64,000 bases of DNA from Bacteroides cellulosilyticus. Its GTDB lineage: Bacteria; Bacteroidota; Bacteroidia; Bacteroidales; Bacteroidaceae. The stretch lies in NCBI RefSeq assembly GCF_020091405.1, contig NZ_CP081903.1:1612001-1676000 (forward strand), written 5' to 3'. Below the pieces are notes generated by a model. That model made no database searches, was not told the DNA's origin, and was given only the letters and a program-made list of their open reading frames with translations. The position numbers and the translations under genes are program-made. Positions 12,093 through 46,279 of the stretch are shown in pieces (positions within the stretch are counted from its first letter, which is position 1; each line of letters starts with the position of its first letter).

Positions 12093-12098
12093 ACATCA

Positions 12099-15279: not shown

Positions 15280-15282
15280 CAT

Positions 15283-15359: not shown

Positions 15360-15366
15360 AACTAAT

Positions 15367-30974: not shown

Positions 30975-31174
30975 AAGGTTTATGTAATAATAGCCAACTT
31001 ACGTATGGTTTGTTTACCGCTTTTTGAGTATTAATTCAGCTTATTTGGCTATAAATAATGACTAATTGGTAGAAATTGATATTTGATGGGCGATGATGGA
31101 GGAAATTCTTTACAATAGGTATTATTTGAATATAAAATAACAATCCTGATAATCAAACATATACATATCCTTAA

Positions 31175-31256
31175 TTTCTTGTCGACAAAAAGTTAAGAGT
31201 TTGTCGACAAGAAGTTAACTCTTTGTCAACAAACTCTTGACTTCTTGTATACAGAG
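31175..31256. repeat. Interlocked direct and inverted GTCGACAA repeats
   Basis: AAGAGTTTGTCGACAA (31195-31210) pairs with TTGTCAACAAACTCTT (31223-31238), 15 of 16. The words TTGTCGACAA and AAGTTAA recur as direct repeats (near 31179 and 31201), and CTTCTTGT ends the block. It lies in the 400-bp gap between two lipoprotein genes and the DUF4384 gene. The rest of this gap (30975-31351) shows no gene. Confidence 0.55.
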
Positions 31257-31351
31257 AATTTGTTATTTTTAAAATATTTTACAAGTATATTTATGGTAAA
31301 GTCGGTTTATGGCTACACGAGCAGATATAAATAGCCTCGCATATCTTTTTC

Positions 31352-31825
31352 TTATTTTTTCTTCTTAGAGAAGAATTTCTTGTGCCAAGGCTGTGTTACA
31401 TTATAAACTTCCATTTTCGGGGCTGGAATAATTATTTCTAAAGCTTTCAGATCTTCTTGATTAGCTTTTCTGAAATTTTTGAATGAGGCTGGAAATCCTG
31501 TGATGGTTAAAGTTCGCTCGCCAAAAGATTTTTTGGTAAAGGTAACTTGAGGCTCCAATAAAACGTCAGCTTTGTTTTCTTTGATAATATCTGCTACCAG
31601 ATTGCTTTTACGTAGCTCTAATGGAGGCTGTCCGAAGTTGAAAGGTACAAAGTTCCACGTAATTTGTTTCTCCACTTTTTGCTTTACATCTAAATCAGCT
31701 ACTGTGGGGTATTGATAAATACCCGATTCTACGGTCATGGTTGTAGAGGTACTTTTCTTCATGGTTGAACATGAAGTAAACAGTATGGTTACGCAAGTGA
31801 ACAGTAAAATAATATTTAGTTTCAT
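31352..31825 (-). CDS. Small lipoprotein, paralogue of the next upstream gene
   Basis: The 157-residue protein has a lipoprotein signal (lipobox ILFTSC, Cys19), then STMKKSTSTTMTVESG. It shares with the product of 31834-32208 the segments STSTTM-x-V, T-x-ADL-x-V, NADVLLEP versus NADILVER, and TITGFPASFKNFR versus TITGYPATYKNFK, so the two arose by duplication. It has an extra Pro-rich, Lys-rich tail (QPWHKKFFSKKKK). The genes lie 8 bp apart and are probably co-transcribed. No family or function is recognised. Confidence 0.75.
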   Translation of the reverse strand: MKLNIILLFTCVTILFTSCSTMKKSTSTTMTVESGIYQYPTVADLDVKQKVEKQITWNFVPFNFGQPPLELRKSNLVADIIKENKADVLLEPQVTFTKKSFGERTLTITGFPASFKNFRKANQEDLKALEIIIPAPKMEVYNVTQPWHKKFFSKKKK

Positions 31826-31833
31826 ATTTGGGG

Positions 31834-32208
31834 CTATTTAAAAGATTCAACTTTGAAGTTCTTGTATGTAGCAGGATATCCTGTTATTGTAACGGATTTA
31901 ATTTTCTTTCCAAACATACGTAATTTGAATACTGCTTCATATTGTCTTTCTACCAATATATCGGCATTTCCGTTTTCTTTTAGTGCAGCGGCAACAGCAT
32001 TGCTGATGACGTGATTTAGACCGGCTTTGCGTTCTTGTTTTTTAGGATAATAGGTATAGGAGATTTTTACGTCTGAAACCTGTAGATCAGCAGTAGTTGT
32101 GCTGGTGAGTGAAGAATCTACATTCATTGTGGTTGATGTAGATGTTCTGAGTAATGAGCAAGAACTTACCGAAATGATCAGTAATAATCCTAATAAAATT
32201 TGTTTCAT
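31834..32208 (-). CDS. Small lipoprotein, paralogue of the next downstream gene
   Basis: The 124-residue protein starts MKQILLGLLLIISVSSC, with the acylated Cys at position 17, and continues SLLRTSTSTTMNVDSS. The remainder is a small basic domain ending TITGYPATYKNFKVESFK. The frame extends nine codons further upstream, but a lipoprotein signal begins at this internal ATG, and a -7 box TATTTTTG (minus strand, 32268-32261) lies 53 bp before it. It is the first gene of a two-gene operon with its paralogue. Confidence 0.75.
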   Translation of the reverse strand: MKQILLGLLLIISVSSCSLLRTSTSTTMNVDSSLTSTTTADLQVSDVKISYTYYPKKQERKAGLNHVISNAVAAALKENGNADILVERQYEAVFKLRMFGKKIKSVTITGYPATYKNFKVESFK

Positions 32209-32260
32209 AATAGTGATAATTTTTAGTTTAAACAAATAGAATTTAAGTTTGATATATTAA

Positions 32261-32268
32261 CAAAAATA
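32261..32268 (-). promoter_or_regulatory. -7 promoter box of the paired lipoprotein genes
   Basis: The minus strand reads TATTTTTG, placing the transcript start about 46 nt before the chosen start codon. Confidence 0.55.
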
Positions 32269-32384
32269 AAGCAATATCTTTAATTAAGGAAAGGTTGAAA
32301 TCGTTGAAAGTAACTAAACATTAGTTTTTTGAGCTTAAATGGTCAAAAAAAAGGACTATATGGTTCGCTTTTTTCATTAATGAG

Positions 32385-33020
32385 TATTGTAGCATTGTAT
32401 CTGTATTGCAACGTCGCTATATATAGCTTGCACTACCGTTGCATATAGCTTATAGTAGTGCTGCATATGCTTTGCAGTGAAGCTGCAACAGTATTACAGC
32501 GATACTGCATCTGTCTTGCAGCGATACTGCACCTGCCTTGCAGCGATGCTAAATCATTTAGTATAGGGAGATGAAGTGACGATGACTGACTATCAACACT
32601 TATCCCGTCAATTGAAATATATCAGAATATGGGCTCCCGCTGCGATAAATATCATAAGAAAAGGCCTTTTATGCAAAAAGTAGGAAGATTATTCCATAGT
32701 TGCAAAATATGAAGTATTATTTTGACTGACAGTAGTATACATCGAAAAACGGCCTAAAATCCGGTGCTGACAAAACGTTTGTCGTCACTTATAAGCACAC
32801 TGTCAGCACTACCGTCAAATGCCGATAAGCAAAGGGTTTGAGCGCTATCAGTGCTGGAGTGCTGATAACTTATTGAAAAACTATATCTACAAGCTGCAAA
32901 TGCCACAGCTTATCAACTGAAATGCCACACCTTAGTAGATAAAATGAATGGCATTTGGCTTGCTGAGGTGTGGCATTGAGGATATTGAGGTGTGGCATTT
33001 GAAACGGTAACGCGTGGCAT
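32385..33020. repeat. Gene-free block with three families of short repeats
   Basis: No protein-coding frame is credible here. First, 32385-32555 holds degenerate units of TTGCAGCGATACTGCA with a 22-bp period in the best part (units starting 32494, 32516, 32538). Second, 32765-32875 repeats GTCAGCACT/AGTGCTGA words and contains GACAAAACGTTTGTC. Third, 32893-33020 holds about six TGCCACA/TGTGGCA words, including AATGCCACACCT (32921-32932) and AGGTGTGGCATT at 32966 and 32988, again 22 bp apart. Confidence 0.6.
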
Positions 33021-33041
33021 CGGGAACGAAGAAGTGCGTGA

Positions 33042-33078
33042 AGAAATAAAAAAACGGAGAAGCAATGCCTCTCCGTTT
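33042..33078 (-). terminator. Intrinsic terminator of the caspase/fimbrillin operon
   Basis: On the minus strand AAACGGAGA (33078-33070) pairs with TCTCCGTTT (33060-33052) and is followed by a T-run. It lies about 100 bp after the last fimbrillin gene. Confidence 0.8.
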
Positions 33079-33181
33079 CTCCTAATTTAAAATTGAAGTA
33101 TCTAAAATTCTACGATACAAATATACAACATCTCGAAAGAGATGTCAAGTGTTTCGGTAGTTATTTTAGTTTATCCAATAT

Positions 33182-34804
33182 TTAGAAAGAAGCAACTGGA
33201 CGAACATTAAATGCTGTTTCTTTGGTATATATGTCTGTAGAATGCTCATCTAATATGTCACCACAGACATCTAAAGATCCGTCTTTTAAAGAACCAAGCC
33301 AAGCATCATAGTGAATATCTCCTCCGCCAAAGTTCTTTATTCCTTCTGTTGAAGTCCAATAATGCCTAGAATACGAATCATATTCTTCTAAATTGATAAA
33401 TAGATTATTGAATACCTTTTGTTTTGAATTATCTATCATTTTAATACCGCATGCCATCATTAATCTTCCCAATTCACCAGTTGAAGGTAGATACCAAAAT
33501 CCTTTGTCACCTTTAGCAGGCGAATAAGAATAACATGCATAGCCAGCCGGATATTCTTCTGTTTTTAAGTAGGATGAATGTTGTCGTCCTGCATAATCAG
33601 TTAAGGAAAACTCAGCCCCTTTTGTGGTTGGCCAATTGTAATAATTATATGGGAGTAGATACTCTTCTGGCACATTATAATACTGGTTTTCTCCGTCAAT
33701 GGGCAGGAAATATTGATCAGGTGAAATGTCTTCTGTTGCCCATGCACATTCGTAGTAATTCATTATACCTTCTATATCGACAGCAGGTCCCCATGCAAAC
33801 TTACCTATATCTTCTAATGCTACAATTCTTCCATGCATAGACTCTGATAAAGATACATTTATATCTCCGTCTTTTTCTTCGCTCAAAGCAAAGACTATGC
33901 CTATGCAGGTTCTATTGGCATCATATTCCGTTGACCATAAACCGTCACTATAATAGTAATCGCCTACTTTGGCCGGAGTTACTACAATATGTGCGTCTGC
34001 CCTGTTAATCGTAATAGGATAAGTGTATTGCTGCTCTGCCTCCCATGTAGCAGCAGGCATCTTTACGATGTATTGCGAATTATCAATCGTCAATGCCAGT
34101 TCTGCCATACCTTCCGTTTCCATTGCAGCAGGTATTACGAGTATATCTACATTTTGGACAGTTTCACTACTGAGTGTGTAGTCCACATCCAATGAAATGG
34201 TACCTGCTACTTTATCTGATATTTCTCCCGTAGTAATATCCATCCAACCGGAAGTTGCAATAGTTTTATTGCTTCCAGCGTTCTGTAAACGAACTTTGGA
34301 AAGCACACCATAACCGGGATCTTCAGCACTACGTTTGATGGACAAAGTGATGCGTGCTAAGGCATGATTGAAATGGATAAATGCATCAGGAAAAGTTGCA
34401 CTTGCTTCTTTTGCTGACATTCCGTAAAGATAATCTGCTTGACCCGTAACGATTGCATCGGATGTAATATCCACGTTGACCTTTTGAACTCTACAGTCAT
34501 TTCTGTAAGGATAATAAGCATAGATCAAGGCAGGCGTTTCTGTTAATGATATGCTTTTTTCTAAAGTCCATTTTGTATTATTGTATGTTGCACAGACATT
34601 CGTCTGATTGCCGTTGGAGGCTAATATACCTATCTGGTCGCCACTATTGAATGTGGAAGATTCAATCACTGAACGGGTGGTAATATCGGTCGTAATGCGG
34701 AGGGAAGAACTTTTGGTATACTGTCCTTCTTCATTCTCATTGCTGCAAGCATAGAAACCTATCATACTTGCGCAAAGAAGCAGTGATGTTATTTTTAGTT
34801 TCAT
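33182..34804 (-). CDS. Fimbrillin-like lipoprotein with DUF1566/Lcl-type C-terminus
   Basis: The 540-residue lipoprotein (lipobox FYAC, Cys20) has a fimbrillin (Mfa-like) N-terminal half: TTRSVIESSTFNSGDQIGI, then LIYAYYPYRND, DYLYGMSA and FIHFNHALARITLSIKRS, the usual family landmarks. From residue about 290 it continues into a DUF1566/Lcl-like domain (FAWGPAVD, FWYLPSTGELGRLM, HYWTST, FNVRPVASF), a lectin-like fold found on surface proteins. It is the last gene of a six-gene operon. The combination suggests a surface-exposed or pilus-associated binding protein; the ligand is unknown. Confidence 0.85.
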   Translation of the reverse strand: MKLKITSLLLCASMIGFYACSNENEEGQYTKSSSLRITTDITTRSVIESSTFNSGDQIGILASNGNQTNVCATYNNTKWTLEKSISLTETPALIYAYYPYRNDCRVQKVNVDITSDAIVTGQADYLYGMSAKEASATFPDAFIHFNHALARITLSIKRSAEDPGYGVLSKVRLQNAGSNKTIATSGWMDITTGEISDKVAGTISLDVDYTLSSETVQNVDILVIPAAMETEGMAELALTIDNSQYIVKMPAATWEAEQQYTYPITINRADAHIVVTPAKVGDYYYSDGLWSTEYDANRTCIGIVFALSEEKDGDINVSLSESMHGRIVALEDIGKFAWGPAVDIEGIMNYYECAWATEDISPDQYFLPIDGENQYYNVPEEYLLPYNYYNWPTTKGAEFSLTDYAGRQHSSYLKTEEYPAGYACYSYSPAKGDKGFWYLPSTGELGRLMMACGIKMIDNSKQKVFNNLFINLEEYDSYSRHYWTSTEGIKNFGGGDIHYDAWLGSLKDGSLDVCGDILDEHSTDIYTKETAFNVRPVASF

Positions 34805-34867
34805 ATATGTTATTTTTCTGATTATATATTTTATAATTATTTGCCAATTTTATTGAGATATCGTAAC

Positions 34868-36520
34868 TCAAGGAACCAGTACAAGGCGGAAACCAACATA
34901 ACCATATCTGCCGTTCATTGCTATGATTTTTCGACGAGATACTCGGCATTCGCTGGCATTGTCCGATTTGTCGATACTCCAGTAACTGCCACCACGCAAA
35001 ATGGGATGAGAGCCGAGAATAAACACTTCCGGATCGACTTGTGGACCAGCACTGTACTTATCAAGCCGATCACTACACCATTCCAATACATTACCACTCA
35101 TGTCATAAATGCCCAATTCATTAGGTTGCTTAGTAGCTACAGGATGGATTACATCATTACTGTTCATAGTATACCATGCTACCTCACCGAGGTTATTGCT
35201 TCCACTATACATGAAACCTTTAGATTGATCTCCACCACGAGCTGCATATTCCCATTCGGCTTCCGTGGGAAGACGGAATTCTTTTCCTGTCAGACTGTTG
35301 ATCTGCTTCATAAAGTCGTCAGCAGCATCGTAATAAGCTATCCCCATTGCAGGAAGAGTAACGTCACTTGGTGGTATTCCTCCCATAACGGCTTGCCATA
35401 ACCCCTGCGTTACTTCTGTTTCTCCTATATAATAGTCTCTTGTTAGGGTTACTTGATGAGCGGGTTTTTCATTATCATCAGGATTTACTTGTTCTTCTGT
35501 TGCCCCCATAGTGAATGTGCCTGCCTTTACAAGAATCATTGAAAATTGTACACCTTTCACTTCATTGGTTATTTTCTCCTTTAAATAGTTATCATCTCCT
35601 ATCTCAATTCCTCCTTGTTCACTATTCTTCCATTCGCTAATCTCCGCCTGATTGATATCAAGACTACCATTCTTTATCGTCACCGTATACGTATACTGCT
35701 GTCCTGCCTTCCAGTTCGTCACCGGTACAGCAGCAGAGAGTCCATTCTCGAAACTGCTGATATTATCGCTCATATTCAGCATGATCTTTTTCCCTTCTGT
35801 ATTTCCTGGAATGACAAGGAAATCAGCAACAATTTCATTGTCAGAGTTCTCAAGTGCATAATCAGAAGGCTTTGCAGTGAGATTGGAAGTTCCTGAAGGA
35901 TCAAGAATTGCACCGTTTTCCAGCACATTCACGTAAGCACTTTTATCCACATTCAAGAGATTGATATAAGGAAACTTATAAGTTTTCTCATTGTCTGCCG
36001 ATTTCTTAATTCTCATCGTTACGCGAGCCATGGCATGCTTGAAGTAGATATTAGCCTTGGGCTGCTCAGTATTGACATACGTCAGCCTATTGTCGCTGTC
36101 GGCGCTATATCCATATAAGTAATCCGTTTGGGTAGTGGCGTCAATGGGCATTTGCAATAAATATTCTATATTTGAATAATTTGCATTATACGGATAATAG
36201 GCATATACGGGCACATCCACACCTTCGGGCAGGTACACATTCTTACTAAGCGTACTGTTACCTTTCGAGTAATTGACGCATAAATTCACCCCATTCTCGA
36301 TAATGGCCATTTCACTGCTTGTAAAGATACCATACTGGCAATCATCAACAAACTTACTACCTTCGATAATGCTACGGGTAGTCTGCACCCCGTCTACTTG
36401 TACTTCCAGCGGAACTTGTTTGCCGACAGTCGCAACTTCATCTTCGTTGCTACATGACGCAACGGACAGCATACCGCCTATCATCGTTGCCACGTAAAAT
36501 ATAGATTGAATTCTTTTCAT
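34868..36520 (-). CDS. Fimbrillin-like lipoprotein with SUMF1 domain
   Basis: The 550-residue lipoprotein (lipobox SVASC, Cys23) has a fimbrillin N-terminal region (TTRSIIEGSKF, VYAYYPYNANYS, DYLYGYSAD, YFKHAMARVTMRIKKS). From residue about 310 it becomes an SUMF1/formylglycine-enzyme-like domain (VKAGTFTMGAT, YIGETEVTQGLWQAVMG, FRLPTEAEWEYAARGG, YDMSGNVLEWCSDR, LRGGSYW, YVGFRLVL). The cysteine pair needed for formylglycine generation is not evident, so it probably serves as a lectin-like binding domain, not an enzyme. It lies 14 bp after the upstream fimbrillin gene and 63 bp before the next one. Confidence 0.87.
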   Translation of the reverse strand: MKRIQSIFYVATMIGGMLSVASCSNEDEVATVGKQVPLEVQVDGVQTTRSIIEGSKFVDDCQYGIFTSSEMAIIENGVNLCVNYSKGNSTLSKNVYLPEGVDVPVYAYYPYNANYSNIEYLLQMPIDATTQTDYLYGYSADSDNRLTYVNTEQPKANIYFKHAMARVTMRIKKSADNEKTYKFPYINLLNVDKSAYVNVLENGAILDPSGTSNLTAKPSDYALENSDNEIVADFLVIPGNTEGKKIMLNMSDNISSFENGLSAAVPVTNWKAGQQYTYTVTIKNGSLDINQAEISEWKNSEQGGIEIGDDNYLKEKITNEVKGVQFSMILVKAGTFTMGATEEQVNPDDNEKPAHQVTLTRDYYIGETEVTQGLWQAVMGGIPPSDVTLPAMGIAYYDAADDFMKQINSLTGKEFRLPTEAEWEYAARGGDQSKGFMYSGSNNLGEVAWYTMNSNDVIHPVATKQPNELGIYDMSGNVLEWCSDRLDKYSAGPQVDPEVFILGSHPILRGGSYWSIDKSDNASECRVSRRKIIAMNGRYGYVGFRLVLVP

Positions 36521-36534
36521 TGTTTTTTCCTTTT

Positions 36535-37701
36535 TTAGTCGTTAACTGTGATATCGCCCCCCTCGTTATTTTCCCACTCTCTTATAGTGACATCGCCGAT
36601 AGTAATTACTGCGTCATCAATGGTGACAGGATATTCGTATACCTTTCCGGCTTCCCAACTTGAAGCCGGGAAATCTACTTTGATAGAGTGACCCTCGCTC
36701 GTACTTAAGAGTAAAGAAACCGTCTTCTCTCCAAATTCGGAAGGAATCAGATTCATGAACGCTTGAGATGCCTCGTCTGTCGGAGTAATGTTGGTTTGCC
36801 GGAAATTACCATCTTCCATATAACTGCGGTTTCCAAATTCTCCTGTGGCTATGTCTAAATCTGCACCCGTAGGCAGTAAATTCTTCCCATTATCCATGAT
36901 GACTACGCTTGTAATGGTAGTATTGGAATTAAAATGTTCTCCCGCCTTCACGAGCAAAATGATACGGGACAACACCTGTTTCATTTTTATGTGGGCGACA
37001 GGGTTCTTGTCGGTGATTGTTTCACTGCATCCCCACATAATCTCATCATCATATTTATATGTATCCACGCGAACAAACATATCGTCCGCTTTCTTATTTT
37101 CTATATAGGGGAAGTAAGCGCAAAGTTTAAGAGGGGTGTTGGCAGGAGGAACAATCTCTTTAGGAAGATTCCAAAGGTCTTTCTCGGTGGCAGAGTCATA
37201 TTTTTTCGTGGTATACATATTGCCATAGCCACCGTATAGTGAGAATTCTCCGTTGTCCGTAATGAGGTAAGTGCCTAAGAAATCCCATGTTACATTTTCT
37301 GTTTTGCCCTCCCAATCAGTCAGCATAACAGATTCCAGCCTGATGGAGCTGTTTGTTGTGAAGGACTTCATCTCTCCCTTTACCTCATTCTTCCCATCGA
37401 AACTACGCATCATGGCTATATAATAATAGGTGGTGCCGGGGGCCAAGTTCCTCAGTAACATATTCTCGCTTTCATAAGCATCACTCATATCTTCTGAGGT
37501 GGAAATCTGGAAAATGACTCTGCCACTGGCTGTGCCATTACTTAAAATTGCGGTAATCGTGGCGCTTGTTGCTGTAATTTCTGTTGCATCTCCCGTTTGA
37601 ATTGTGGGAATATTATTGGTGGGACTATCTAATTCCTGACATCCGGCCATCATGGCGCATACGCCCAATGCCATCATTAATATATATCGTATCTTTTTCA
37701 T
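36535..37701 (-). CDS. Fimbrillin-like lipoprotein with N-terminal fibronectin-like region
   Basis: The 388-residue lipoprotein (lipobox MMAGC, Cys21) first shows a fibronectin type III-like stretch (ITATSATITAILSNG, then LAPGTTYYYIAMM, residues about 40-120). A fimbrillin domain follows, with LKLCAYFPYIEN, AHIKMKQVLSRIILLVKAG and FPASSWEAGKVYEYPVTI, and the protein ends IREWENNEGGDITVND. The order resembles fimbrillin-family proteins that form or cap pili. It is the fourth gene of the operon, 18 bp after the outer-membrane protein gene. Confidence 0.82.
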   Translation of the reverse strand: MKKIRYILMMALGVCAMMAGCQELDSPTNNIPTIQTGDATEITATSATITAILSNGTASGRVIFQISTSEDMSDAYESENMLLRNLAPGTTYYYIAMMRSFDGKNEVKGEMKSFTTNSSIRLESVMLTDWEGKTENVTWDFLGTYLITDNGEFSLYGGYGNMYTTKKYDSATEKDLWNLPKEIVPPANTPLKLCAYFPYIENKKADDMFVRVDTYKYDDEIMWGCSETITDKNPVAHIKMKQVLSRIILLVKAGEHFNSNTTITSVVIMDNGKNLLPTGADLDIATGEFGNRSYMEDGNFRQTNITPTDEASQAFMNLIPSEFGEKTVSLLLSTSEGHSIKVDFPASSWEAGKVYEYPVTIDDAVITIGDVTIREWENNEGGDITVND

Positions 37702-37719
37702 ATCTTCTTTATTTATAAA

Positions 37720-38499
37720 TTAAAAGTACATACCAACACCGAAGTTGCCCACACAATCTTTGAAACTGTTTGAATCGTTATTCAGCATTACACCTCCATT
37801 GATGAAGAATCTTTTTATTTTCAGCATCACACCGCACTCAATGACAATTCCATTATAGCTGTCAGGCTCATATTCTACAGAATTTCCATCAAATTCTTCC
37901 CAAGCTACCGTACGGTCAGAGTAGCCTGCGCCTACATAAACATGAATAGGACTCCATAGGCGAGCTATGAAACCGGCTGTGGCATTCCAATAGTTTTGTT
38001 CCATTTTGCCGGTCAGCCAATGTTGGTAGTAGTCTTCAGCTTTCATGGAACCATTGGTATCGGGCTCCTTGCTGTACACTCCTTTCACATACCAACCGAT
38101 GTCCTTCACCCGTCCCAGCATCAACCCCAATGAAGGTTTAAATTCTGCATTATCAGGAATAGCCATCTGCACGCCCACCAGCCACTTATACTTGTCCGGC
38201 TTTTCCCGCCACCAGCTGCTGTCCGACATTTTGATAAGCATATCCGGTTTCACCTTCTGTTCTTTCGCCTGCATACCCACATAGTAGACTTTCACCTTTT
38301 GCGCTGGAGTTTTTGTCTCCAGTGTAAACGTACCGTCCAGCTCTGTAATGGTTGATTCAGTCCCTCCCTTGATTTCAACTTTGGCTCCCGGAATAGGGTT
38401 TCCCTTCTTGTCCGTAACAATTCCACTCACCGTGTTCTGTGCGGATAGATAAAAGCCGCCCAGCGAGAGGAAAAAGCCCAGTAATAGTAATTTCTTCAT
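37720..38499 (-). CDS. CarboxypepD-type outer membrane protein
   Basis: The 259-residue protein has a signal peptide (ending FYLSAQ) and then a carboxypeptidase-regulatory-like domain (TVSGIVTDKKGNPIPGAKVEIKG, then TITELDGTFTLE; residues about 23-105). The C-terminal 140 residues are rich in Tyr, Trp and Gly and end GNFGVGMYF, as in a small outer-membrane beta-barrel. It may anchor or position the caspase and fimbrillin products at the outer membrane. It lies 33 bp after the caspase gene. Confidence 0.8.
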   Translation of the reverse strand: MKKLLLLGFFLSLGGFYLSAQNTVSGIVTDKKGNPIPGAKVEIKGGTESTITELDGTFTLETKTPAQKVKVYYVGMQAKEQKVKPDMLIKMSDSSWWREKPDKYKWLVGVQMAIPDNAEFKPSLGLMLGRVKDIGWYVKGVYSKEPDTNGSMKAEDYYQHWLTGKMEQNYWNATAGFIARLWSPIHVYVGAGYSDRTVAWEEFDGNSVEYEPDSYNGIVIECGVMLKIKRFFINGGVMLNNDSNSFKDCVGNFGVGMYF

Positions 38500-38532
38500 T
38501 TGTTCTGTATTTTTAGAGTTATGATTGTTCCG

Positions 38533-41112
38533 TTATGGCTTTAGCTTTAATTCTTTCCAGCTGCTGCTCAATGTTGCCGAAGGAGATACTGTTGGCGTTT
38601 GTACTTTCCGGTTCACTACAACCGATTGCTGTTTAACCTTCTCCGTCAGATAACTGCCTAGCTCTTCCAGCGTTGTATTCCCTTTGCTTTCCTGTAACTT
38701 CTTTAGTAAGAAGTAAGTGAATAATCCATGTCCTTTGTCTTTATAAGGAAAAGCAGTTTCATCGCCCGAGGCGGCACTGAAGATAACCATGTTTCCTTTC
38801 GGATCTTCTTTCTTCGCTTTCAATGCTACGCCACGGGCGGAAGCAAGCATACCGCCATCACGTTGTGCACCACTGAAACAAGCATCCAGAAAGACCACTA
38901 CATAATTGGCGTTCAGTCCGCCCAGTTCCGTATAGAGTTTGTTGAGCGAGTAGCATCCTTCTGTCTGCTGACCGTCGGCGTCAATAGGAAGCAGGAAAGC
39001 GTCTTTAGTGGCTTCGTTGGGGATGCCGTGCCCGGCATAGTAGAACACTACTTTTATTTGTCCCGCATAAGCATTGGATATATCTTTGATATCACGCATG
39101 GCACGTAGCATCGTTCCATAGGAAGCATCGGGATAAAAACGGATATTATCTTTAGGTATTCCTAATGTCTTTTCACAGTAGCGGCTGAAGGTTTCTCCGT
39201 CGTTCAGTGCCATTGGAACTTTAGATACCATGGTATAATTCTCATTAGAAATAATGACGGCAAAGGTTTTGTCGTTGTTGGCACGTACTTCCGGTATGTT
39301 TATATCTACATCCGAACTTCCAACCTTGATTTCATTCTTTTGTATCCTTGAAGCAGGAGCAGTAGAGGCGTCTGCTTGTGCCAGTATACCATAGTCGATG
39401 GCATCGAAACGCACGTCTACCGTGGTTGCCGCATAATTTACCGCTTCCTTATTATCGTACCGGTAAGAGTTGCCGGTGGGGGTGACGAAAGTCAGACTTG
39501 CTAATGCCAACTTTCCATTGTTAATGCAAAATTGGGGATCTTTAAACTGCATTCCTTTCCAACTGCTCTCGAAGATACGGGCCTCATTATTCTCGCGGGG
39601 AACGGGAACCACCAGTTCGCCGAATTTAGATTCTACAAGGAAAGCGCGGTTGTCGGCATCGTATGGTTTCAACTCCATTTCGCTGAAGCGTATGCCCTGT
39701 GTATAAGTCCGGATATATTGTTTCTCGGCTTCCGCCAGGAGTTCTTTGACCTTGGCGTCGCGGGTGGTTTCGGTTACGCGTGCCTTATATTCGTCTACTG
39801 TTTCATAATCGTCCTTGAGCTGCCAGGTTTTTATTTTCTCTTCTACGTAGCTTTTGGCAAAAGTCTGGTATTCGGGCACTTCTTCCGCAGAGGCGGTTGC
39901 CGCAGGGGTTGCAAAGAGCAGTGAGTTGTAGTTCTTTGCCGTTGTAGAGGTTGCCGCAGGGGGCGAAGCCGGGACACCGTTATCCGAGAAAGCCATCAGT
40001 GAAGGTATGGAAGAAGCTGATACGGCATTTCCGCCCAATGAAGATATCTTATTGTTCAGGGCGCTCATTTCGCCCGAATTACCCAGACATTGGTAGGAGG
40101 TAGCCAGCGCTTCCATATATTTCAGAGAGGTGGGGTCTGATGCCAGTACGTCTTTGAAGATAGTCACGGCAGCCGAGAAGTACTCTTCGGATTGCTTTAT
40201 GAGTTTTTTGGCAGCCGATGAATTCTTTTCCATGGTGCCTTTATTGTTGAAAAGCACTCCCAGATTATAATAATTCAGTCCCAGATGCTTGTATATGTCC
40301 AAGCTGCGCGGATTGGTGTTGCGCAGCGTGGTATAAACCTGCAGTGCTTTCTGGTATTCCTGCGTTTCTTCGTAGAGTTTCCCCTGGATGTTAAGCAAGG
40401 TGTTGTCGTTGGGTTTTATAATCAATGCTTTGGATACATATTTCTGCAAACCTTCATTATCCTTGAGGTCGATGCAACAGTTGATACCCATAGACAGGAG
40501 GTTGAAGTCCGAAGGATAACTGTTTATCGCTTCATCGAGCACGGTTTTGGCCAAAGTATAGTTCTTAATATTTGAGCATGCCTTTGCCATGTAGCTGAAT
40601 ACGCTTTTCCTGTTCTTTGGATCCCCGGTCTTCAGGTACTCTTGGAAATAGACGATTGCTTTCGCATAATCCTTCACATTGTAAGTGCCGGATGCGGCAA
40701 AATAAGCCATTGTGGCGTAGTAGTTGTCTTTCGGGAAAGACTCTGTCCGAAAGGCTTCCATCAGCGGAACATCTATATAAGCCTGCGCCATCAGCAATGC
40801 GTTTTGCTGGCTTCCCTTCTGCGAATTGTAGATGGCTCCGTTCTGAAGATACGGATGGATGTCGCGCAACGTGCTTTTGGCCTGCTCGTAGGAGGGGCTG
40901 CCGGGGGCAGCGGACTTCAGTACGGCTACATACTCTTTGTAACAGTCATACAGGGTTACGTAGAGCGTACCTTTGTCCGCATTCTCATTATTCAGGCGGA
41001 CAAAATTCTTGTATTCCGTATTAGCCTTATCAAGCGATTGTGCCTGCACCGGCTGATATGCGATGCAGGAACAAACCAACAAACCAATTGACAATAACTG
41101 TTTCTTCATCAT
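38533..41112 (-). CDS. Exported caspase-family (C14) protein with TPR domain
   Basis: The 859-residue protein has a signal peptide (ending QPVQAQ), about six TPR-like repeats (residues about 110-340), a Ser/Ala/Pro-rich linker (355-412), a module at 418-560 that is shared with the WD40 protein encoded just upstream, and a C-terminal caspase domain (about 605-850). The catalytic dyad is intact: H695 in FYYAGHG and C745 in FLDACFSG. Caspase-like proteins of this clade usually cut after Arg or Lys, but specificity is not readable here. An export signal on a caspase points to periplasmic or surface work, for example processing of the fimbrillin-like lipoproteins encoded downstream; that is inference. 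Confidence 0.9.
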   Translation of the reverse strand: MMKKQLLSIGLLVCSCIAYQPVQAQSLDKANTEYKNFVRLNNENADKGTLYVTLYDCYKEYVAVLKSAAPGSPSYEQAKSTLRDIHPYLQNGAIYNSQKGSQQNALLMAQAYIDVPLMEAFRTESFPKDNYYATMAYFAASGTYNVKDYAKAIVYFQEYLKTGDPKNRKSVFSYMAKACSNIKNYTLAKTVLDEAINSYPSDFNLLSMGINCCIDLKDNEGLQKYVSKALIIKPNDNTLLNIQGKLYEETQEYQKALQVYTTLRNTNPRSLDIYKHLGLNYYNLGVLFNNKGTMEKNSSAAKKLIKQSEEYFSAAVTIFKDVLASDPTSLKYMEALATSYQCLGNSGEMSALNNKISSLGGNAVSASSIPSLMAFSDNGVPASPPAATSTTAKNYNSLLFATPAATASAEEVPEYQTFAKSYVEEKIKTWQLKDDYETVDEYKARVTETTRDAKVKELLAEAEKQYIRTYTQGIRFSEMELKPYDADNRAFLVESKFGELVVPVPRENNEARIFESSWKGMQFKDPQFCINNGKLALASLTFVTPTGNSYRYDNKEAVNYAATTVDVRFDAIDYGILAQADASTAPASRIQKNEIKVGSSDVDINIPEVRANNDKTFAVIISNENYTMVSKVPMALNDGETFSRYCEKTLGIPKDNIRFYPDASYGTMLRAMRDIKDISNAYAGQIKVVFYYAGHGIPNEATKDAFLLPIDADGQQTEGCYSLNKLYTELGGLNANYVVVFLDACFSGAQRDGGMLASARGVALKAKKEDPKGNMVIFSAASGDETAFPYKDKGHGLFTYFLLKKLQESKGNTTLEELGSYLTEKVKQQSVVVNRKVQTPTVSPSATLSSSWKELKLKP

Positions 41113-41126
41113 ATTATAGAGATTGA

Positions 41127-43190
41127 TTAAAATGCATCTACAAAGGTGAATGCTACGCTGATTCTTCTGTATTCGCTGCCTTTCTCTTTGGTCACCTCGA
41201 TATAATAGTTATAGTCGGAATTCATTTTAGAGAAGGCCGGAATGTTTTGCAGAAGATACTCTTTTACGCCTACGGCACGGAGGAAAGCGAGCTGGTCGTT
41301 CTGGGTGATACCGCTTTCTTTGGTGACTGTGATGTTCGATAAGTCATTATCTTTATATACGGGCTCGTTCGTGTATTCTCCGTAAACTCTGTTGTAGGCT
41401 ATTTTTCCGTTAATAGGGCTTGCATCGGCCATTCCGGTGATTTTCACCCGCAGCTTTTTGCCTGCCTGCACATATTGGGCGAAGTCTTTCTCGAAGGCTG
41501 TCTTCATGATGGCCAACATGGACATGGCGGCACCCGATTGGTCGGTGGCATATTTCCCCGGTCCGAAGTCCTCTTGGGCAGAGAACCCCTGTTCCACTTC
41601 GTAAGAGAAGTTGATGTTGTAGTTCATGATTTTCTTTCCGTTGGCATCTGTTTCGGAGGCAATCCCGGCATCCACTGATATTTTGGTATGGTCGGATATC
41701 GTCTTTTGTTGTTTAGCCATGTTCATGATGCTCTCCTTGATTTCCTGTAGTTTGATTTCGTCCATATTGGATTGCTGAACCAGATTGAGGGGGATGAAGT
41801 TGTCGTCGGACTTCATATAGTCGAATGACTCACGGTCCAGATTATCGTACTTGTAAGTTTTTCCGGAAGCCTTGTTGTATACGTCGGCGTAGATAAGTTC
41901 GAATTTGTCGTTCTTGGTCAGGCCGTACTTGGCGTTGCGGAATTCCAGGTCGCCGGGATTCATGAAGTCGGATACCTCTTCTGTGGGCACGTCCAGGTAG
42001 ATGGTGGGCATGGTGTTGAATTCGAGTGCCAGCACATTGTCGGTGGGGTTATAGTTTCCTAAGGTTACTTCCGATTTTTCTACCAGATTGTCGGCCATGC
42101 GGGTAGCGATTTCTTGTTCAAACAGTTTCATTTGTTCGGCACGTGTCTCGTCGTTTACACGGAGGTTGTACTCTTCCAATGTTTCGCCGGGCATCATCTT
42201 CATCCAGGTGTTCATGCGGTCACTCAGTTCATCGCTCATCAGTCTGGTGTAGTTGGGCGACAGTTTGCTCATCAGCTCGTAAGTGATGGAATTTACCGTA
42301 TTGTATGCCAGAAAGATTTCTCCTTTTCCGTTTTTCAGGAAACGTGCGTCTGTAATTCCGCCTTCGGCATTGTCAATGTATTCACGGTCTGTTTCGTCCA
42401 TCAGGTTCAGGATGGAGATGCGGTTGTCTCCGGTGATGATGGCTATGTATTTTCCTTCCGGGTGGAAGTAGCAGTATTTGGCTGTCCCCATGGCATCGTA
42501 GCTCTGGAGGATGAAGAAGGTGCGGGTGTCATAGGTATTCAGTTTGCCGTCGGCGGTCAATACGGCAAGCAGGTTGTTGTCGGCGGAGAAGGTGAAGCAG
42601 TTGATTTTATCGTCTGCCTCAATGCTTTTGCGCAATTCTTTGGTTTGCAGGTTCCAGATGTCCAGTGTGTTGCCATTGGATGCCGCAATGAAATAGTTGT
42701 TGCTGCTGATGGCTATGTTTTCCGCAACGAAGGGTATTTCCATCTTGCTTTGCAGGGCGTATTGCCGGGTATCGAAGAACAGCAGTTCTTTGTTGTCGCC
42801 GGATATCACGAGGCTTTTGGCATCGGGCGCGTAACAGAGGGATACGGGTGTTATGTCTTCTTCGAATTCGTGTTTCACCTTGTTGGCCATCCATAAATCA
42901 TACACGGTAACGCTGCTTTTCTTGCCTTTCGTCTGCACGATGGCGAAGGAAGAGCCTGCCGGATTTATCTTCATGGCAGATATCATATCGGAATTGCTCA
43001 GCACCGAATTACGCAGATTGTATGTCTTCTTTCCGTTGTAGTAATAAGTTGAAAATAGATAGTTATCTATTCCTGTCGGAGACACTTTTTGAGGATAAAC
43101 ATATTTTTGTCTCTCTTCATTGTTTGTGGTTTGAGCAGATAACTGGGGAAGACACAAACTGCAAAGTAAAAATAGAATAAAGTTTTTCAT
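41127..43190 (-). CDS. Exported WD40-like protein with shared module and OmpA-like C-terminus
   Basis: The 687-residue protein has a signal peptide (ending PQLSAQ) and a beta-propeller of WD40-like repeats at residues about 60-300 (SVTVYDLW, LLFFDTRQ, LDIWNLQTKEL, LNTYDTRT, ISILNLMD). Residues about 318-465 form the module also found in the caspase protein, ending KTYKYDN versus NSYRYDN there. The C-terminal region (about 540-687) looks like a diverged OmpA-type domain (VKITGMADASPINGK, QLAFLRAVGVKEYL, RRISVAFTF), which would bind peptidoglycan. It is the first gene of the operon and 14 bp before the caspase gene. A scaffold for the caspase is the simplest guess. Confidence 0.8.
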   Translation of the reverse strand: MKNFILFLLCSLCLPQLSAQTTNNEERQKYVYPQKVSPTGIDNYLFSTYYYNGKKTYNLRNSVLSNSDMISAMKINPAGSSFAIVQTKGKKSSVTVYDLWMANKVKHEFEEDITPVSLCYAPDAKSLVISGDNKELLFFDTRQYALQSKMEIPFVAENIAISSNNYFIAASNGNTLDIWNLQTKELRKSIEADDKINCFTFSADNNLLAVLTADGKLNTYDTRTFFILQSYDAMGTAKYCYFHPEGKYIAIITGDNRISILNLMDETDREYIDNAEGGITDARFLKNGKGEIFLAYNTVNSITYELMSKLSPNYTRLMSDELSDRMNTWMKMMPGETLEEYNLRVNDETRAEQMKLFEQEIATRMADNLVEKSEVTLGNYNPTDNVLALEFNTMPTIYLDVPTEEVSDFMNPGDLEFRNAKYGLTKNDKFELIYADVYNKASGKTYKYDNLDRESFDYMKSDDNFIPLNLVQQSNMDEIKLQEIKESIMNMAKQQKTISDHTKISVDAGIASETDANGKKIMNYNINFSYEVEQGFSAQEDFGPGKYATDQSGAAMSMLAIMKTAFEKDFAQYVQAGKKLRVKITGMADASPINGKIAYNRVYGEYTNEPVYKDNDLSNITVTKESGITQNDQLAFLRAVGVKEYLLQNIPAFSKMNSDYNYYIEVTKEKGSEYRRISVAFTFVDAF

Positions 43191-43312
43191 GTTTCATATC
43201 CCTTACTCTACTTAGTTCCAGAAGTAGTTGTTAATACTTTATGGAGGGCGTGGAACTGTTTTCATATCTGTTCATTCAATTATCGTATACTATTTTGTGT
43301 GCTGAACGGACA

Positions 43313-43380
43313 AAATAAAAAACGCCTTCTTTTCTGTAAGCAAATTTAGATGAATATAAATTAACAGAAAAGAGGGCTTT
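43313..43380 (-). terminator. Intrinsic terminator after the LytTR regulator, with an embedded -7 box
   Basis: On the minus strand AGCCCTCTTTTCTGT (from 43378) pairs with ACAGAAAAGAAGGCG (43337-43323), followed by a T-run. The 26-nt loop contains TAAATTTG (43348-43341), a match to the -7 promoter consensus. A transcript starting there would be the WD40-caspase-fimbrillin mRNA, with a leader of about 145 nt. Confidence 0.65.
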
Positions 43381-43450
43381 GGAGGAAATCAGTTCAAGTC
43401 TTTAACAACTACGCTTAACTGGTTCAAAAAAATGTTTGTACGGTATTTTT

Positions 43451-44212
43451 TTACAGGAAGTTCAATGCTTCCTTTATTTTGCTGTAATGGCGTCTGCTTG
43501 CCGAAATCTCCAGATGATTGAATGGAGCATAAAGTATGCAGCGCAGTGTATTGTTCTCTACAGAAGAAAGATAATCAATGTTCAGAATGTAATTCGTATT
43601 CACCCGGATGAAAGAAGGGCAGAAGTTCAATATATCCTTCGCCTTGGTACTGAGCCGCAATCTGTATTGTTCCATATTGGTCAGGGTCATTTGCCAACAG
43701 CGGGTTTCATCCGAATATTGAAAAAACAGTATTTCGGACCGTCTCAGAAGTAACAAGCGGCTGATGGTTTGAACAGCGAATTTGCAATCGTTACTTAATA
43801 ACTGACGCATGGCTTGGTCAAAATTGATGGAGTTGTTGCTCTTTTCCCGCTTGATTCTTTCTACAATTTGTTTGAGTTCGTTTGTCTGATAAGGCTTCAG
43901 CAGATAGTCAAAGGCAGAAGCTCGTAATGCATCGAGCATATACTTGTCAAAAGCGCTATAGAATATGACACGCATATTATTGCGCACATACGGGCGTATC
44001 TCCTGTAAGAGTTCGATGCCGTTGATATATGGCATTTCCACGTCAAGAAACAGCAAGTCCGGTTGATATTGTATGATGCTTTTCTTTGCTTTCTGTGAAG
44101 AGGTGAACGTGTCCAGAATTTCTATTTCAGGATAGGTTTTCAAATCATCCTCTAAATTTTGGATAGAGTTGATTTCGTCGTCAACAATGATAGTTTTAAT
44201 AGTATTTGCCAT
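43451..44212 (-). CDS. LytTR-family response regulator
   Basis: The 253-residue protein has a receiver domain with D11-D12, phospho-acceptor D57 (LFLDVEMP) and K106 (LLKPYQ), followed by a LytTR DNA-binding domain (residues about 150-250: RSEILFFQYSDE, FIRVNTNYILNIDYLSSVE, ISASRRHYSKIKEAL). The start MANTIKTIIVDDE lies 4 bp after the kinase stop; a longer frame would overlap the kinase gene. It is co-transcribed with the sensor kinase and sits directly upstream of the WD40-caspase-fimbrillin genes, its probable targets. Confidence 0.92.
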   Translation of the reverse strand: MANTIKTIIVDDEINSIQNLEDDLKTYPEIEILDTFTSSQKAKKSIIQYQPDLLFLDVEMPYINGIELLQEIRPYVRNNMRVIFYSAFDKYMLDALRASAFDYLLKPYQTNELKQIVERIKREKSNNSINFDQAMRQLLSNDCKFAVQTISRLLLLRRSEILFFQYSDETRCWQMTLTNMEQYRLRLSTKAKDILNFCPSFIRVNTNYILNIDYLSSVENNTLRCILYAPFNHLEISASRRHYSKIKEALNFL

Positions 44213-44216
44213 TATT

Positions 44217-46244
44217 TTAAATATTGAATTGATAATTGAAAGGGACAACCATTGTCACCAAAGTACCATGCTGGGAGGTGGAGGATGTAGCTATATTCTG
44301 GATATCGAATATGATTTTCTCAGAATTCTTGCTATTTAATAGCTCTATGGTACGGAACAAAACTTTCAATCCATTTCCTGTCCCTCGTTTTGAGTCGGCA
44401 TGTTTTCCCGGATCATATCCACTGCCGTTATCCTGGATGTATATGGATAGATTTTTGATTTCATTTGAAATTTGTATGGAAAGTATATTTTCTTGTTCAC
44501 ATTCCTCTCCGAATGCATATTTCAGTGCATTCTCTACCGGAATCTGTATACACATGGATGGAATGAGAGTTTGCAAGGGAACTTGTCTGTCAATTTCCCA
44601 TTCAATGCGTATCTTATCCGGATTGGTTTCTTTGCGGAGGGCGATGTAGTTTTTCACCAGTTCTATCTCTTCCTGAAGTTCGACAGCTATTTTTTCAGAT
44701 GCCAATAGGTTTCCACGCAATACTTGTATAAGCAGCTGGAGTGGTTGTGCCAATTCCGAATATTGCTTAAATGTCGGCATCACTGCATTTAGCACATTGA
44801 ATACGTAGTGCGGTGATATGCGGTTTCTTATATTCTCCATACGTAGTTGTGTGGCTAATGCCATTTGGCGGTTATATCTCTGCTCGTTTTTCCGCCGGAT
44901 ATAGATGAAGATTAATATTGCCAGCAAAATGGATATGACTAACAATCCTACAAAAAACATGATTGCATTCTGCTGGCGAGACAGTCGGGTTTTATCGTTG
45001 CTGATAAGGATATCTTTTTTCAATAGGGTGGTGTCCTGGCTGTAGCGGTAATCTATCTCGTTGATATTATTGATATTCCGTATATTTCTCATGGAGTCAT
45101 CATATTGTTCTACTATGTTTTTGTAGTTATAAGCCTTTTCAAAGTCTTTCTTTTGGGCATAATACTCCATCAGGCGTTTGTTGTGCAGATAGATGTAGGA
45201 GGGGCCGATACGCTGTGGGCTGTAAGGTTTGGAAAGATAACGGTTGGCTGCCTCCAGTTTATTTTCGCGCAACGCTAAAGCTCCTTGAAGGCTGTTCAGA
45301 TAGAATAAGACTTCCTCATTGGCAGTGGAGTCATTCATTAATACGGAACAGGATTTATCCAGATAATAATGGGCTGAGTCATGCTTTCCCAGTAACATGT
45401 AAATCTCCCCTAAATTGGCTTCTACCAATGCGTTAAATGAAGGTTGGTTGAACGGTTTTACTACCTGATAGGCTTGCTGAAAATAGGGTAAGGCCTCTGC
45501 GTACTTTTCTTCATAGTAAAGACAGTTTCCTTTTGAATTCAGAAAATGATAGTTCTCATACTCCAGGCGTTGTTCGGGTACTTGTTCGGCCAAGTCAAAG
45601 TAACGGTGTGCCAGTGTGAAGTTATGCAGGTCAGCATAAGTCTGTGCAAGCCCCATGTAAATGCTGAATTTGACATATTCGGATTTCAGCGAGTCTACCA
45701 CCCATAATGCTTTTCTGTAATATTTGGAAGCTTGGACAAGCTCTCCTTTCTGGCGGTATGCGTCAGCTAGGTTTATACATATATTTTCCAGCTCCAGGCG
45801 GTCGTGTGAACGATACGTGGCATTGTAGGCATGGTGGAGGCAAGCTATGGAAGAATCTCGTTGGTTCATTCCCTGTAGTAGTGAAGAACGATGATTCCAG
45901 CACATGCCCTCTAAGGCGGATGTTTCGGGGTGTTGTTTGCAGAAAGTCAGAACCTTTTGATTGATGTGCAGAGCACTGTCCGGATATCCCTGAAGATAAA
46001 GGCAATATCCGGCAAAAAGTTCCAATTTATAGTAAGCTGCACTGTCAGATGTCTTTTTTTGTGCTTCTCTGAAGCATGTTTTCATCTTTTCCGGATAAGT
46101 GTATATCGAATCGAACTTACTGATTAGTAAAGCATCGATCTCACTTCGCACTCTTTTCCCATCTTTTTGTGAGTTACATGCCAGTAATGAAAATAGAGAT
46201 ATAATAATATATATGACTATTCTGCCGTATTTGTCCATTCCCAT
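44217..46244 (-). CDS. LytS-type sensor histidine kinase with TPR sensor
   Basis: The protein of about 675 residues begins with a hydrophobic signal (VIYIIISLFSLLACNSQ) that could be a lipoprotein signal or a membrane anchor. An extracytoplasmic TPR region follows (about residues 50-375), then one TM helix (about 427-449) and a His_kinase-type DHp with H479 in RISPHYVFNVLNA. The ATPase part has PVENALKYAFG, QDNGSGYD and GTGNGLKVL. This class pairs with LytTR regulators, as it does here. The frame extends ten codons further up, but a -7 box (TATATTTG, 46279-46272) lies there, so the start is at 46244 or 46238. Confidence 0.9.
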   Translation of the reverse strand: MGMDKYGRIVIYIIISLFSLLACNSQKDGKRVRSEIDALLISKFDSIYTYPEKMKTCFREAQKKTSDSAAYYKLELFAGYCLYLQGYPDSALHINQKVLTFCKQHPETSALEGMCWNHRSSLLQGMNQRDSSIACLHHAYNATYRSHDRLELENICINLADAYRQKGELVQASKYYRKALWVVDSLKSEYVKFSIYMGLAQTYADLHNFTLAHRYFDLAEQVPEQRLEYENYHFLNSKGNCLYYEEKYAEALPYFQQAYQVVKPFNQPSFNALVEANLGEIYMLLGKHDSAHYYLDKSCSVLMNDSTANEEVLFYLNSLQGALALRENKLEAANRYLSKPYSPQRIGPSYIYLHNKRLMEYYAQKKDFEKAYNYKNIVEQYDDSMRNIRNINNINEIDYRYSQDTTLLKKDILISNDKTRLSRQQNAIMFFVGLLVISILLAILIFIYIRRKNEQRYNRQMALATQLRMENIRNRISPHYVFNVLNAVMPTFKQYSELAQPLQLLIQVLRGNLLASEKIAVELQEEIELVKNYIALRKETNPDKIRIEWEIDRQVPLQTLIPSMCIQIPVENALKYAFGEECEQENILSIQISNEIKNLSIYIQDNGSGYDPGKHADSKRGTGNGLKVLFRTIELLNSKNSEKIIFDIQNIATSSTSQHGTLVTMVVPFNYQFNI

Positions 46245-46271
46245 CGTCTTTGTTGTTTTGCTTTTAGGGAA

Positions 46272-46279
46272 CAAATATA
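46272..46279 (-). promoter_or_regulatory. -7 promoter box of the kinase/regulator operon
   Basis: The minus strand reads TATATTTG, which puts the transcript start near 46265 and rules out the longer kinase start. Confidence 0.6.

Follow-up and report, generated by a model that had tools for sequence, protein, structure and literature searches.

Gene content and limits of the locus

In this study, we examined a window of 64,000 nucleotides of Bacteroides cellulosilyticus DNA (the whole stretch analysed), in which a two-component pair is followed by an operon for a WD40 protein, a caspase, a CarboxypepD_reg protein and three fimbrillin-like lipoproteins. The export signals on the effector-operon proteins, and their surface or periplasmic locations, are motif readings. 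The features are as follows:

44217..46244, minus strand: TPR sensor histidine kinase (open reading frame and Pfam)
43451..44212, minus strand: LytTR response regulator (open reading frame and Pfam)
43341..43348, minus strand: candidate Bacteroides -7 element TAAATTTG, lying 158 bp upstream of the WD40 gene
41127..43190, minus strand: exported WD40 protein (Pfam and alignment; all 18 matches adjoin a caspase or are fused to one)
38533..41112, minus strand: exported TPR-caspase (Pfam, alignment, structure model)
37720..38499, minus strand: CarboxypepD_reg protein, CpD (Pfam)
36535..37701, minus strand: Fim1 lipoprotein (Mfa_like_1)
34868..36520, minus strand: Fim2 lipoprotein (Mfa_like_1 and FGE-sulfatase-type tip)
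33182..34804, minus strand: Fim3 lipoprotein (Mfa_like_1 and C-terminal region)
33048..33082, minus strand: intrinsic terminator at the effector operon end (16 pairs)
31078..38064, no strand: replaced segment (comparison with B. timonensis)
30058..30945, minus strand: exported DUF4384 protein (linked caspase partner across the family)

All eight open reading frames of the initial annotation were present on the minus strand, in place and in order; the gaps within the effector operon (14, 33, 18, 14 and 63 bp) agree with the 14-63 bp given there, and the closing terminator was recovered as a 16-pair hairpin at 33082-33048. The view that the eight genes form one unit is not supported, as 260 bp separate the response regulator gene from the WD40 gene and the gap holds a candidate promoter. 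That inventory had also overlooked the linked DUF4384 gene, 2.2 kb downstream. The candidate -7 element was judged against the Bacteroides consensus.

The His_kinase, Response_reg and LytTR domains all score above their Pfam cut-offs, and the HATPase_c domain of the kinase slightly under. Read from the ATG at 46244 (an alternative TTG reading starts at 46274), the kinase has TPRs, a hydrophobic stretch at ~435-460 and, by eye, a lipobox-like N-terminus; it reaches 27.3 bits against the FimS equivalog model, whose cut-off is 600, and is therefore not classed as FimS. The LytTR regulator is 99.2% identical to its counterpart in B. timonensis, the only one of the fetched loci (where upstream DNA was covered) in which the pair was matched. 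Because of this single match and the 260-bp gap, the pair looks like a local regulator outside any conserved eight-gene unit. An invertible promoter in the window was considered and rejected: the candidate promoter lies between the arms of an 11-nt inverted repeat (43224-43234/43402-43412), probably by chance, since the repeat is absent from the 98%-identical B. timonensis DNA, its pattern occurs once in the genome and 2 of 100 mononucleotide shuffles produce one as good. A 2025 inverton paper places fimbrillin genes near invertons, the excerpt bearing on them making no mention of a caspase (PMC11892184).

The caspase and its partners across the family

The window caspase is composed of TPR-type helices (~27-358), a domain shared with the WD40 protein (~409-573) and a caspase domain (611-859; H695, D743-A-C745), which scores 70.1 bits for Peptidase_C14 against a cut-off of 21.4. 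The H695/C745 dyad proposed earlier was borne out, being invariant in 70/70 rows when the window caspase is aligned with 69 relatives (54-93% identical) out of the 120 listed; equally invariant is D743, two residues before C745, at a position that presumably bears on cleavage specificity. In structure comparison, the domain shows a C14 fold with the His-Cys dyad and lies near MALT1 and metacaspases, which have Arg/Lys specificity, and the window caspase is predicted to be, and probably is, Arg/Lys-specific. The arrangement of domains in the model is unreliable because its pTM is only 0.54. The N-terminus resembles a signal-peptidase-I signal (motif reading), which suggests the periplasm rather than the surface. 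A polymorphic-toxin caspase (excerpts of PMC3482391) and a pseudo-orthocaspase (excerpts of PMC6426788) were also considered and set aside, with no toxin domain among the Pfam matches of the operon.

The WD40 protein consists of a seven-bladed propeller (~28-309), the domain homologous to that of the caspase (~308-469) and a C-terminal domain (~500-687). Its earlier description as WD40/OmpA-like is right in the first part and weak in the second: no PF00691 (OmpA_C) match was found in the window protein, and 4 of 11 relatives match, at best with an E of 0.002. A PDB profile search with the C-terminal domain gave nothing below E 0.13, and since the propeller dominates what Foldseek and VIA-align return for the modelled WD40 protein, this domain was barely probed structurally.

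Across 251 family genomes (E <= 1e-20), DUF4384 was matched in 36, each of which also has a caspase, and 17 of 18 WD40 matches adjoin one, the remaining match being a fusion of the WD40 C-domain to a caspase. No caspase match was obtained at this threshold in 211 of the 251. The caspase is tied to DUF4384, and often to WD40 too, across 16 of the 30 family genera sampled, and judging by this co-occurrence the DUF4384 gene belongs to the caspase system. Of 10 close-subfamily loci, 8 have the gene order WD40-caspase-CarboxypepD-(Fim1-type lipoprotein), for which reason the association of the caspase with surface proteins is real, as first proposed; the two-component pair, counted in the same proposal, is not conserved in the loci whose upstream DNA was covered. 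Among divergent WD40-caspase pairs, none of five has CpD or Fim matches, so that the core must act without fimbrillins there, and four loci (L066, L068, L073, L074) have a caspase and DUF4384 with no adjoining fimbrillin. Families of ~490 aa and ~220 aa were found in 12 and 10 of 23 clustered stretches, respectively. As a separate observation, caspase, WD40 and DUF4384 are often accompanied elsewhere by a possibly transglutaminase-like protein.

Fimbrillin-like lipoproteins and the replaced segment

Mfa_like_1 (PF13149) scores above its cut-off in Fim1, Fim2 and Fim3, upholding the annotation of three fimbrillin-like lipoproteins. Fim1 has an extra N-terminal part, its match beginning at profile position 29 (positions 1-28 missing), and is 37% identical to its B. 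timonensis counterpart. In Fim2, Mfa_like_1 (48-297) is followed by an FGE-sulfatase-type tip (327-547, 140 bits) that had gone unnamed; it lacks the catalytic cysteine pair, with Ser and Asp aligned to the two catalytic Cys of the Streptomyces-type FGE chains 6muj/2q17. The closest PDB match of this tip is the variable protein TvpA, and between alleles the N-domain of Fim2 is kept while the tip is swapped. The C-terminal region of Fim3 is related to that of its B. timonensis counterpart, a protein with 33.7 bits for Lcl_C (cut-off 34.9).

In comparison with B. timonensis, identity is 98.3% over 14.2 kb upstream and 95% in the downstream flank, and the ~7 kb between them (31078..38064) is divergent, patchily similar or unrelated. 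The breakpoint falls inside the gene of CpD, which, judged by eye, is probably a small barrel of the outer membrane and whose residues 1-80 are 100% identical and residues 161-240 50-60% identical. The fimbrillin end of the operon thus appears to be a replaceable cassette, with the contrast between fixed and variable parts drawn from one genome pair and from protein alleles without genomic context. Silent cassettes elsewhere in the genome were sought by DNA searches with its own and the B. timonensis fimbrillin regions; no separate copy was found, and besides the locus there were only partial matches downstream of fimbrillins.

Possible roles of the caspase and significance

Since DUF4384 and WD40 proteins co-occur with the caspase, and the cassette is replaced and its tips swapped, a fixed exported caspase/WD40/DUF4384 module may serve exchangeable surface lipoproteins, the caspase controlling what is displayed; we regard this as quite possible, though short of probable. 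The fixed part would comprise DUF4384, the TPR-caspase, the N-terminal half of the CarboxypepD barrel protein and, in the periplasm, a WD40 scaffold whose weakly OmpA-like end perhaps binds peptidoglycan; WD40 and caspase would probably sit in one envelope complex near the barrel. The cassette would supply fimbrillin-like lipoproteins displayed at the surface, whose swappable tips probably bind ligands. The caspase would be devoted to controlling the displayed proteins, or their barrel, by proteolysis, whether in processing, quality control or release. Expression would be under local switches: in this genome the kinase/LytTR pair and, in a relative, probably an invertible promoter.

The initial annotation had instead proposed that the caspase responds to envelope damage or processes the fimbrillins, in the latter case in effect as a gingipain-like maturase cutting at an N-terminal Arg for polymerisation. 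Operon linkage, the Thr-Arg-Ser in Fim2 and Fim3, the fold near MALT1 and metacaspases, the orthocaspases reported to cut after basic residues (excerpts of PMC6426788) and the Arg-gingipains that cleave such pilins in P. gingivalis (excerpts of PMC5954841) speak for such a maturase. However, a lipobox was recognised in 28 fimbrillin ORFs of the genome, and among them a Ser/Thr-Arg pair lies 24-30 residues past the lipid Cys in 19 (shuffled mean 1.5, maximum 6) and within 75 residues in 26 (shuffled mean 12.1), Fim1 having none within 75; no substrate site specific to the caspase operon emerged from this comparison. Because the site is generic and a 2025 review, in the part available, names a surface clostripain as the protease of these pilins (PMC12632263), maturation by the caspase is unsupported; the putatively periplasmic caspase, the many family genomes lacking a caspase match and the caspases without a neighbouring fimbrillin make it more doubtful still, and we consider it unlikely, though a cut dedicated to these particular proteins is conceivable.

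The tips might alternatively serve as interchangeable receptors whose ligand comes from a phage, a competitor or the host, with the envelope caspase as executioner or signal protease, in a surface counterpart of the conflict systems that combine caspases with FGS/C-type-lectin domains. Conflict systems in which FGE/C-type-lectin sensors accompany caspase-type effectors (PMC7159879, PMC10907252), the presence of orthocaspase-lectin proteins among DGR targets of cyanobacteria (PMC7517822) and the prominence of WD40, TPR and FGE-sulfatase among metacaspase partner domains (PMC3501461), all as given in excerpts, are consistent with this, as are the TvpA-like tip of Fim2 and the best NCBIfam match of the caspase, the EACC1-associated model (NF047832, E 6e-17), which at 61.7 bits is nevertheless below its cut-off of 140. 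Against it stand the export signals, the lack of an NTPase or adaptor domain in the Pfam matches of the eight proteins and DUF4384, the weak, single-gene PADLOC matches (caspase 29.3 bits) and the caspase loci without such tips, and it seems unlikely. A similarly improbable alternative sees in caspase, WD40 and DUF4384 a general module for proteolysis or stress in the envelope, with fimbrillins as co-transcribed passengers in one subclade; the four fimbrillin-free loci, the five divergent pairs and the recurrent ~490-aa and ~220-aa families fit it, but CpD and a Fim1-type lipoprotein follow in most close-subfamily loci, and the breakpoint within CpD makes one gene unite core and cassette. Rather unlikely, too, is an envelope caspase receptor, in which lectin-fold sensors on pilin-like lipoproteins would signal through the small barrel and WD40 scaffold to the periplasmic caspase, with DUF4384 (elsewhere the possibly transglutaminase-like protein) as partner and the sensor cassette swapped as a block between fixed upstream and downstream parts.

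The architecture of PG1058 (PorE) of type IX secretion, with TPR, WD40, CRD and OmpA in one protein, was not found at the locus. PG1058 likewise has TPR, a WD40 propeller, a CarboxypepD fold and OmpA_C (excerpts of PMC5053529), whereas here the domains lie on three neighbouring proteins, a caspase is added and the OmpA match is weak. Type V pili (FimA/Mfa) of Bacteroidota, as excerpted from PMC12632263, share the Mfa_like_1 lipoproteins, the generic Arg site (here present in Fim2 and Fim3 and not found in Fim1) and a tip with a C-terminal ligand-binding domain, diversified through DGRs. Fim2 has such an extra C-terminal domain, with ligand binding as a prediction, and by eye no reverse transcriptase was noticed among window ORFs of at least 150 aa. 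Unlike those pili, the present system, known from its genes, adjoins an exported caspase, WD40 and DUF4384, and whole tips are swapped along with half of the adjacent CarboxypepD gene. Metacaspase operons likewise pair a caspase with WD40, TPR and FGE-sulfatase, and in the excerpts OmpA occurs in 14 of 217 and extracellular metacaspases were already predicted (PMC3501461); one metacaspase-CarboxypepD_reg fusion is on record (excerpts of PMC4933709). In caspase-FGS conflict systems, as far as excerpts describe them, the effector, NTPase or vWA protein itself carries the lectin-type domain as a fusion, whereas the tips here are on separate lipoproteins. Surface virulence factors of P. gingivalis likewise undergo domain rearrangement and allelic exchange (excerpts of PMC5266723), but here a gut species is concerned and the exchange adjoins a caspase module that stays fixed.

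Among open-licence papers, none joining fimbrillin, caspase, WD40 and Bacteroides was found, and DUF4384 together with caspase turned up in three. The exported caspase of this locus has a conserved dyad and is linked with DUF4384, often with WD40 and, in one subclade, with tip-swapped surface proteins. We know of no role of exported bacterial caspases in the envelope; in this gut commensal, the substrates of such a caspase can be studied, along with a possible partnership in sensing between caspases and pilus-like tips.

Gene set and neighbourhoods in relatives

The host genome is a single 6.94-Mb contig, of which the window covers 1612001-1676000, and the ORF listing of the window bore out all eight minus-strand genes in the order proposed by the initial annotation. 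The gaps of 14-63 bp within the effector operon (WD40 gene to Fim3) and the terminator after it were confirmed from coordinates and by a terminator search. The proposal that all eight form one unit stood as regards gene order, but the regulator and WD40 genes stand 260 bp apart, and a candidate Bacteroides promoter falls in that gap.

Genes of the locus and their Pfam domains
Kinase (HK), minus strand: His_kinase and TPR
Regulator (RR), minus strand: Response_reg and LytTR
WD40 protein, minus strand: WD40-type propeller models
Caspase, minus strand: TPR and Peptidase_C14
CarboxypepD protein (CpD), minus strand: CarboxypepD_reg
Fim1, Fim2 and Fim3, minus strand: Mfa_like_1 in each
Fim2, minus strand: additional FGE-sulfatase domain, 140 bits

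By our reading of the N-termini by eye, signal-peptidase-I type signals are predicted for the WD40, caspase, CpD and DUF4384 proteins (the last encoded at 30058-30945, downstream of the fimbrillins), and lipoboxes for the fimbrillins.

Twenty-three genomic stretches were compared, with L006 and L058 being the same contig. Close WD40-caspase pairs occupy ten distinct loci (the window, L005 of B. timonensis, L056 to L062, and L067), and in eight of them a CarboxypepD gene and a Fim1-related lipoprotein gene follow, so that the order WD40-caspase-CpD-Fim1 recurs in other genomes. No such continuation was found in L059 and L062, the latter having two other CarboxypepD genes. Six of the eight loci gave a fimbrillin-domain match; in L057 and L061 only the N-terminal part of Fim1 was matched, in L057 in a protein to which Pfam assigned an Lcl_C tip but no Mfa domain, and in L061 by sequence comparison rather than Pfam. 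CpD or Fim matches were absent from all five divergent pairs (L036, L063, L064, L071, L072), and none lay directly beside the caspase in the eight stretches lacking a WD40 gene (L065, L066, L068 to L070, L073 to L075), though in L065 a fimbrillin-cluster protein is encoded at a distance of 2.5 kb.

The L036 pair (8745-13709), with identities of 39% and 29%, is a second one in the same genome; its neighbours include polyA-polymerase-type and methionine sulfoxide reductase genes, with no Fim or CpD match. L068 (2050-11018), from one genome of the same genus, holds three caspase genes in 9 kb. By single-linkage clustering, a family of mostly ~490 aa recurs in 12 of the 23 stretches and one of ~220 aa in 10. 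The former may tentatively be called transglutaminase-like, the label being tentative because one member exceeded the cut-off of such a Pfam family by a narrow margin (2.5e-4) and three other members scanned gave no hit.

Replaced cassette and exchanged tips

B. timonensis is close to this genome (98.3% identity over 14.2 kb). Read from 52257, where the fetched locus ends, high identity continues as far as 38064 and stops inside the CpD gene; below this, only patches of 76-89% are found until identity resumes at 31078 (95%), with DUF4384 in the conserved flank. Protein identities are 97.8% (HK), 99.2% (RR), 99.4% (WD40), 99.2% (caspase), 77.8% (CpD; 100% over residues 1-80, 50% over 201-240), and 37, 57 and 62% for Fim1, Fim2 and Fim3. 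Past a patch at 32383-32886, B. timonensis has ~5.4 kb against 1.3 kb in the window. No second copy of either cassette version was detected in this genome, the only other hits being partial ones to the segment that follows the fimbrillin genes.

The patch itself, which follows Fim3 and is ~500 bp long, contains no listed ORF of at least 80 aa. Its conservation in B. timonensis is 88%, and partial copies of it occur elsewhere in the genome, such as at C1:4313406, 3625420 and 2235734 (C1 being its contig). In B. timonensis, two genes labelled by eye as transposase/nuclease-like and SNF2-helicase-like (L005 20776-23722) separate its Fim3 from the conserved flank. The window has two small lipoprotein genes (~125 and ~157 aa) at 31352-32211, in the interval from Fim3 to DUF4384, where the DNA differs in B. 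timonensis. Upstream of DUF4384, TTGTCGACAA is surrounded by dense inverted repeats (31173-31260), and short matches to this region are scattered across the B. timonensis genome.

The Fim2 search scored 7998 proteins and compared the best 120, most of which match the FGE part. Its N-terminal domain was matched by 17 of these 120 (including P0001, the window's own cluster) and by the B. timonensis protein, at 67-99% identity, and the relatives diverge past a conserved linker near residue 305. Typed by eye, the 18 comprise three FGE tips, eight 'AVDLGLSVKWA', two 'VGDxYYSDG' and five without a tip, of which P0101 may be truncated. Pfam placed the tips of P0093, P0095 and P0102 with Lcl_C/Fib_succ_major, all below cut-off, and recognised no tip domain in P0031, P0077 and P0089; P0031, whose N-domain is 94.8% identical to that of Fim2, does not match the window's tip. 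The best match of the FGE tip is TvpA of Treponema denticola (E 4e-28). Given this match, and with Ser and Asp aligned to the two cysteines of FGE chains, the tip more likely serves in binding than in catalysis.

Caspase and DUF4384 across the family

When 251 genomes of the family were searched with the caspase, DUF4384 and WD40 proteins (E <= 1e-20), matches were obtained in 40, 36 and 16 genomes, respectively, all of the DUF4384 and WD40 genomes being among the 40. The DUF4384-caspase co-occurrence (Fisher 2e-39) is descriptive rather than a test, as the genomes are related. Copy numbers are lower bounds, because about three caspase candidates were scored per genome in the first search. Of the 44 DUF4384 matches, 36 have a caspase match no more than 10 kb away, and for 34 of them the distance is at most 5 kb; in the window it is 7.6 kb. 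The remaining eight are on contigs without a caspase match.

Four caspase genomes (G006, G093, G095, G125) had no DUF4384 match at this threshold, though in G093 a small search detected a weak homologue (L139:1479-2504; 25%, E 4e-14) 0.7 kb from the caspase. For 17 of 18 WD40 matches, a caspase match is at most 1.5 kb away; the other is a fusion in G093, a single 763-aa ORF (L139:3216-5507) joining the WD40 C-terminal domain (residues 481-687 of the window's protein) to the caspase domain (residues 599-824). A near-full-length caspase was matched continuously in eight of the 251 genomes, and a second set of 100, overlapping the first in part, yielded one additional genome apart from this one; more distant full-length caspases give a match split in two pieces.

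Control, maturation and overall reading

Of the stretches compared, B. timonensis alone gave matches to the kinase and regulator. No match was found in L057, L060, L061 and L067, each with at least 5 kb upstream of WD40; L056, L058, L059 and L062, with at most 2.4 kb, are little informative. In L056, a 27-nt inverted repeat upstream of the operon (93% complementary, arms 151 nt apart; 14558-14762) adjoins a Phage_int_SAM_5 tyrosine recombinase gene (14783-15985), which looks like an invertible promoter. In the 500 bp ahead of the WD40 gene there, a single -7-like element was found, and it faces away from the operon, possibly an OFF state. Together with the restricted kinase and regulator, this putative promoter suggests that control of the module seems to have been recruited locally.

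The initial annotation proposed, as one of two alternatives, that the caspase processes the fimbrillins; as a general rule this is probably not so. A lipobox was recognised in 28 of 29 distinct fimbrillin ORFs of this genome, and in 26 of the 28 a Ser/Thr-Arg pair lies no more than 75 residues from the lipid Cys (mean 12.1 and maximum 19 across 500 shuffles), while in 19 it stands 24-30 residues after that Cys (shuffled mean 1.5, maximum 6); a narrower earlier count gave 18 of 30. Being so common across the genome's fimbrillins, the site is a property of the fimbrillin family, not of this operon. Fim1 lacks the motif; Fim3 bears it, yet was missed by the lipobox rule. A review of type V pili names clostripain as the protease that cleaves these pilins (PMC12632263), and Arg-gingipains perform the cleavage in P. 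gingivalis (PMC5954841).

The newness lies in the combination of an exported caspase, a DUF4384 partner and swappable tips on pilin-like lipoproteins, no single part being new; this combination was not found in the portions of the open-licence literature consulted, which is limited evidence. Our results agree with a model in which the envelope module is fixed and a surface cassette is swapped. The caspase may control the surface proteins, or these may trigger the caspase; both readings are kept, with the caspase as controller ahead.
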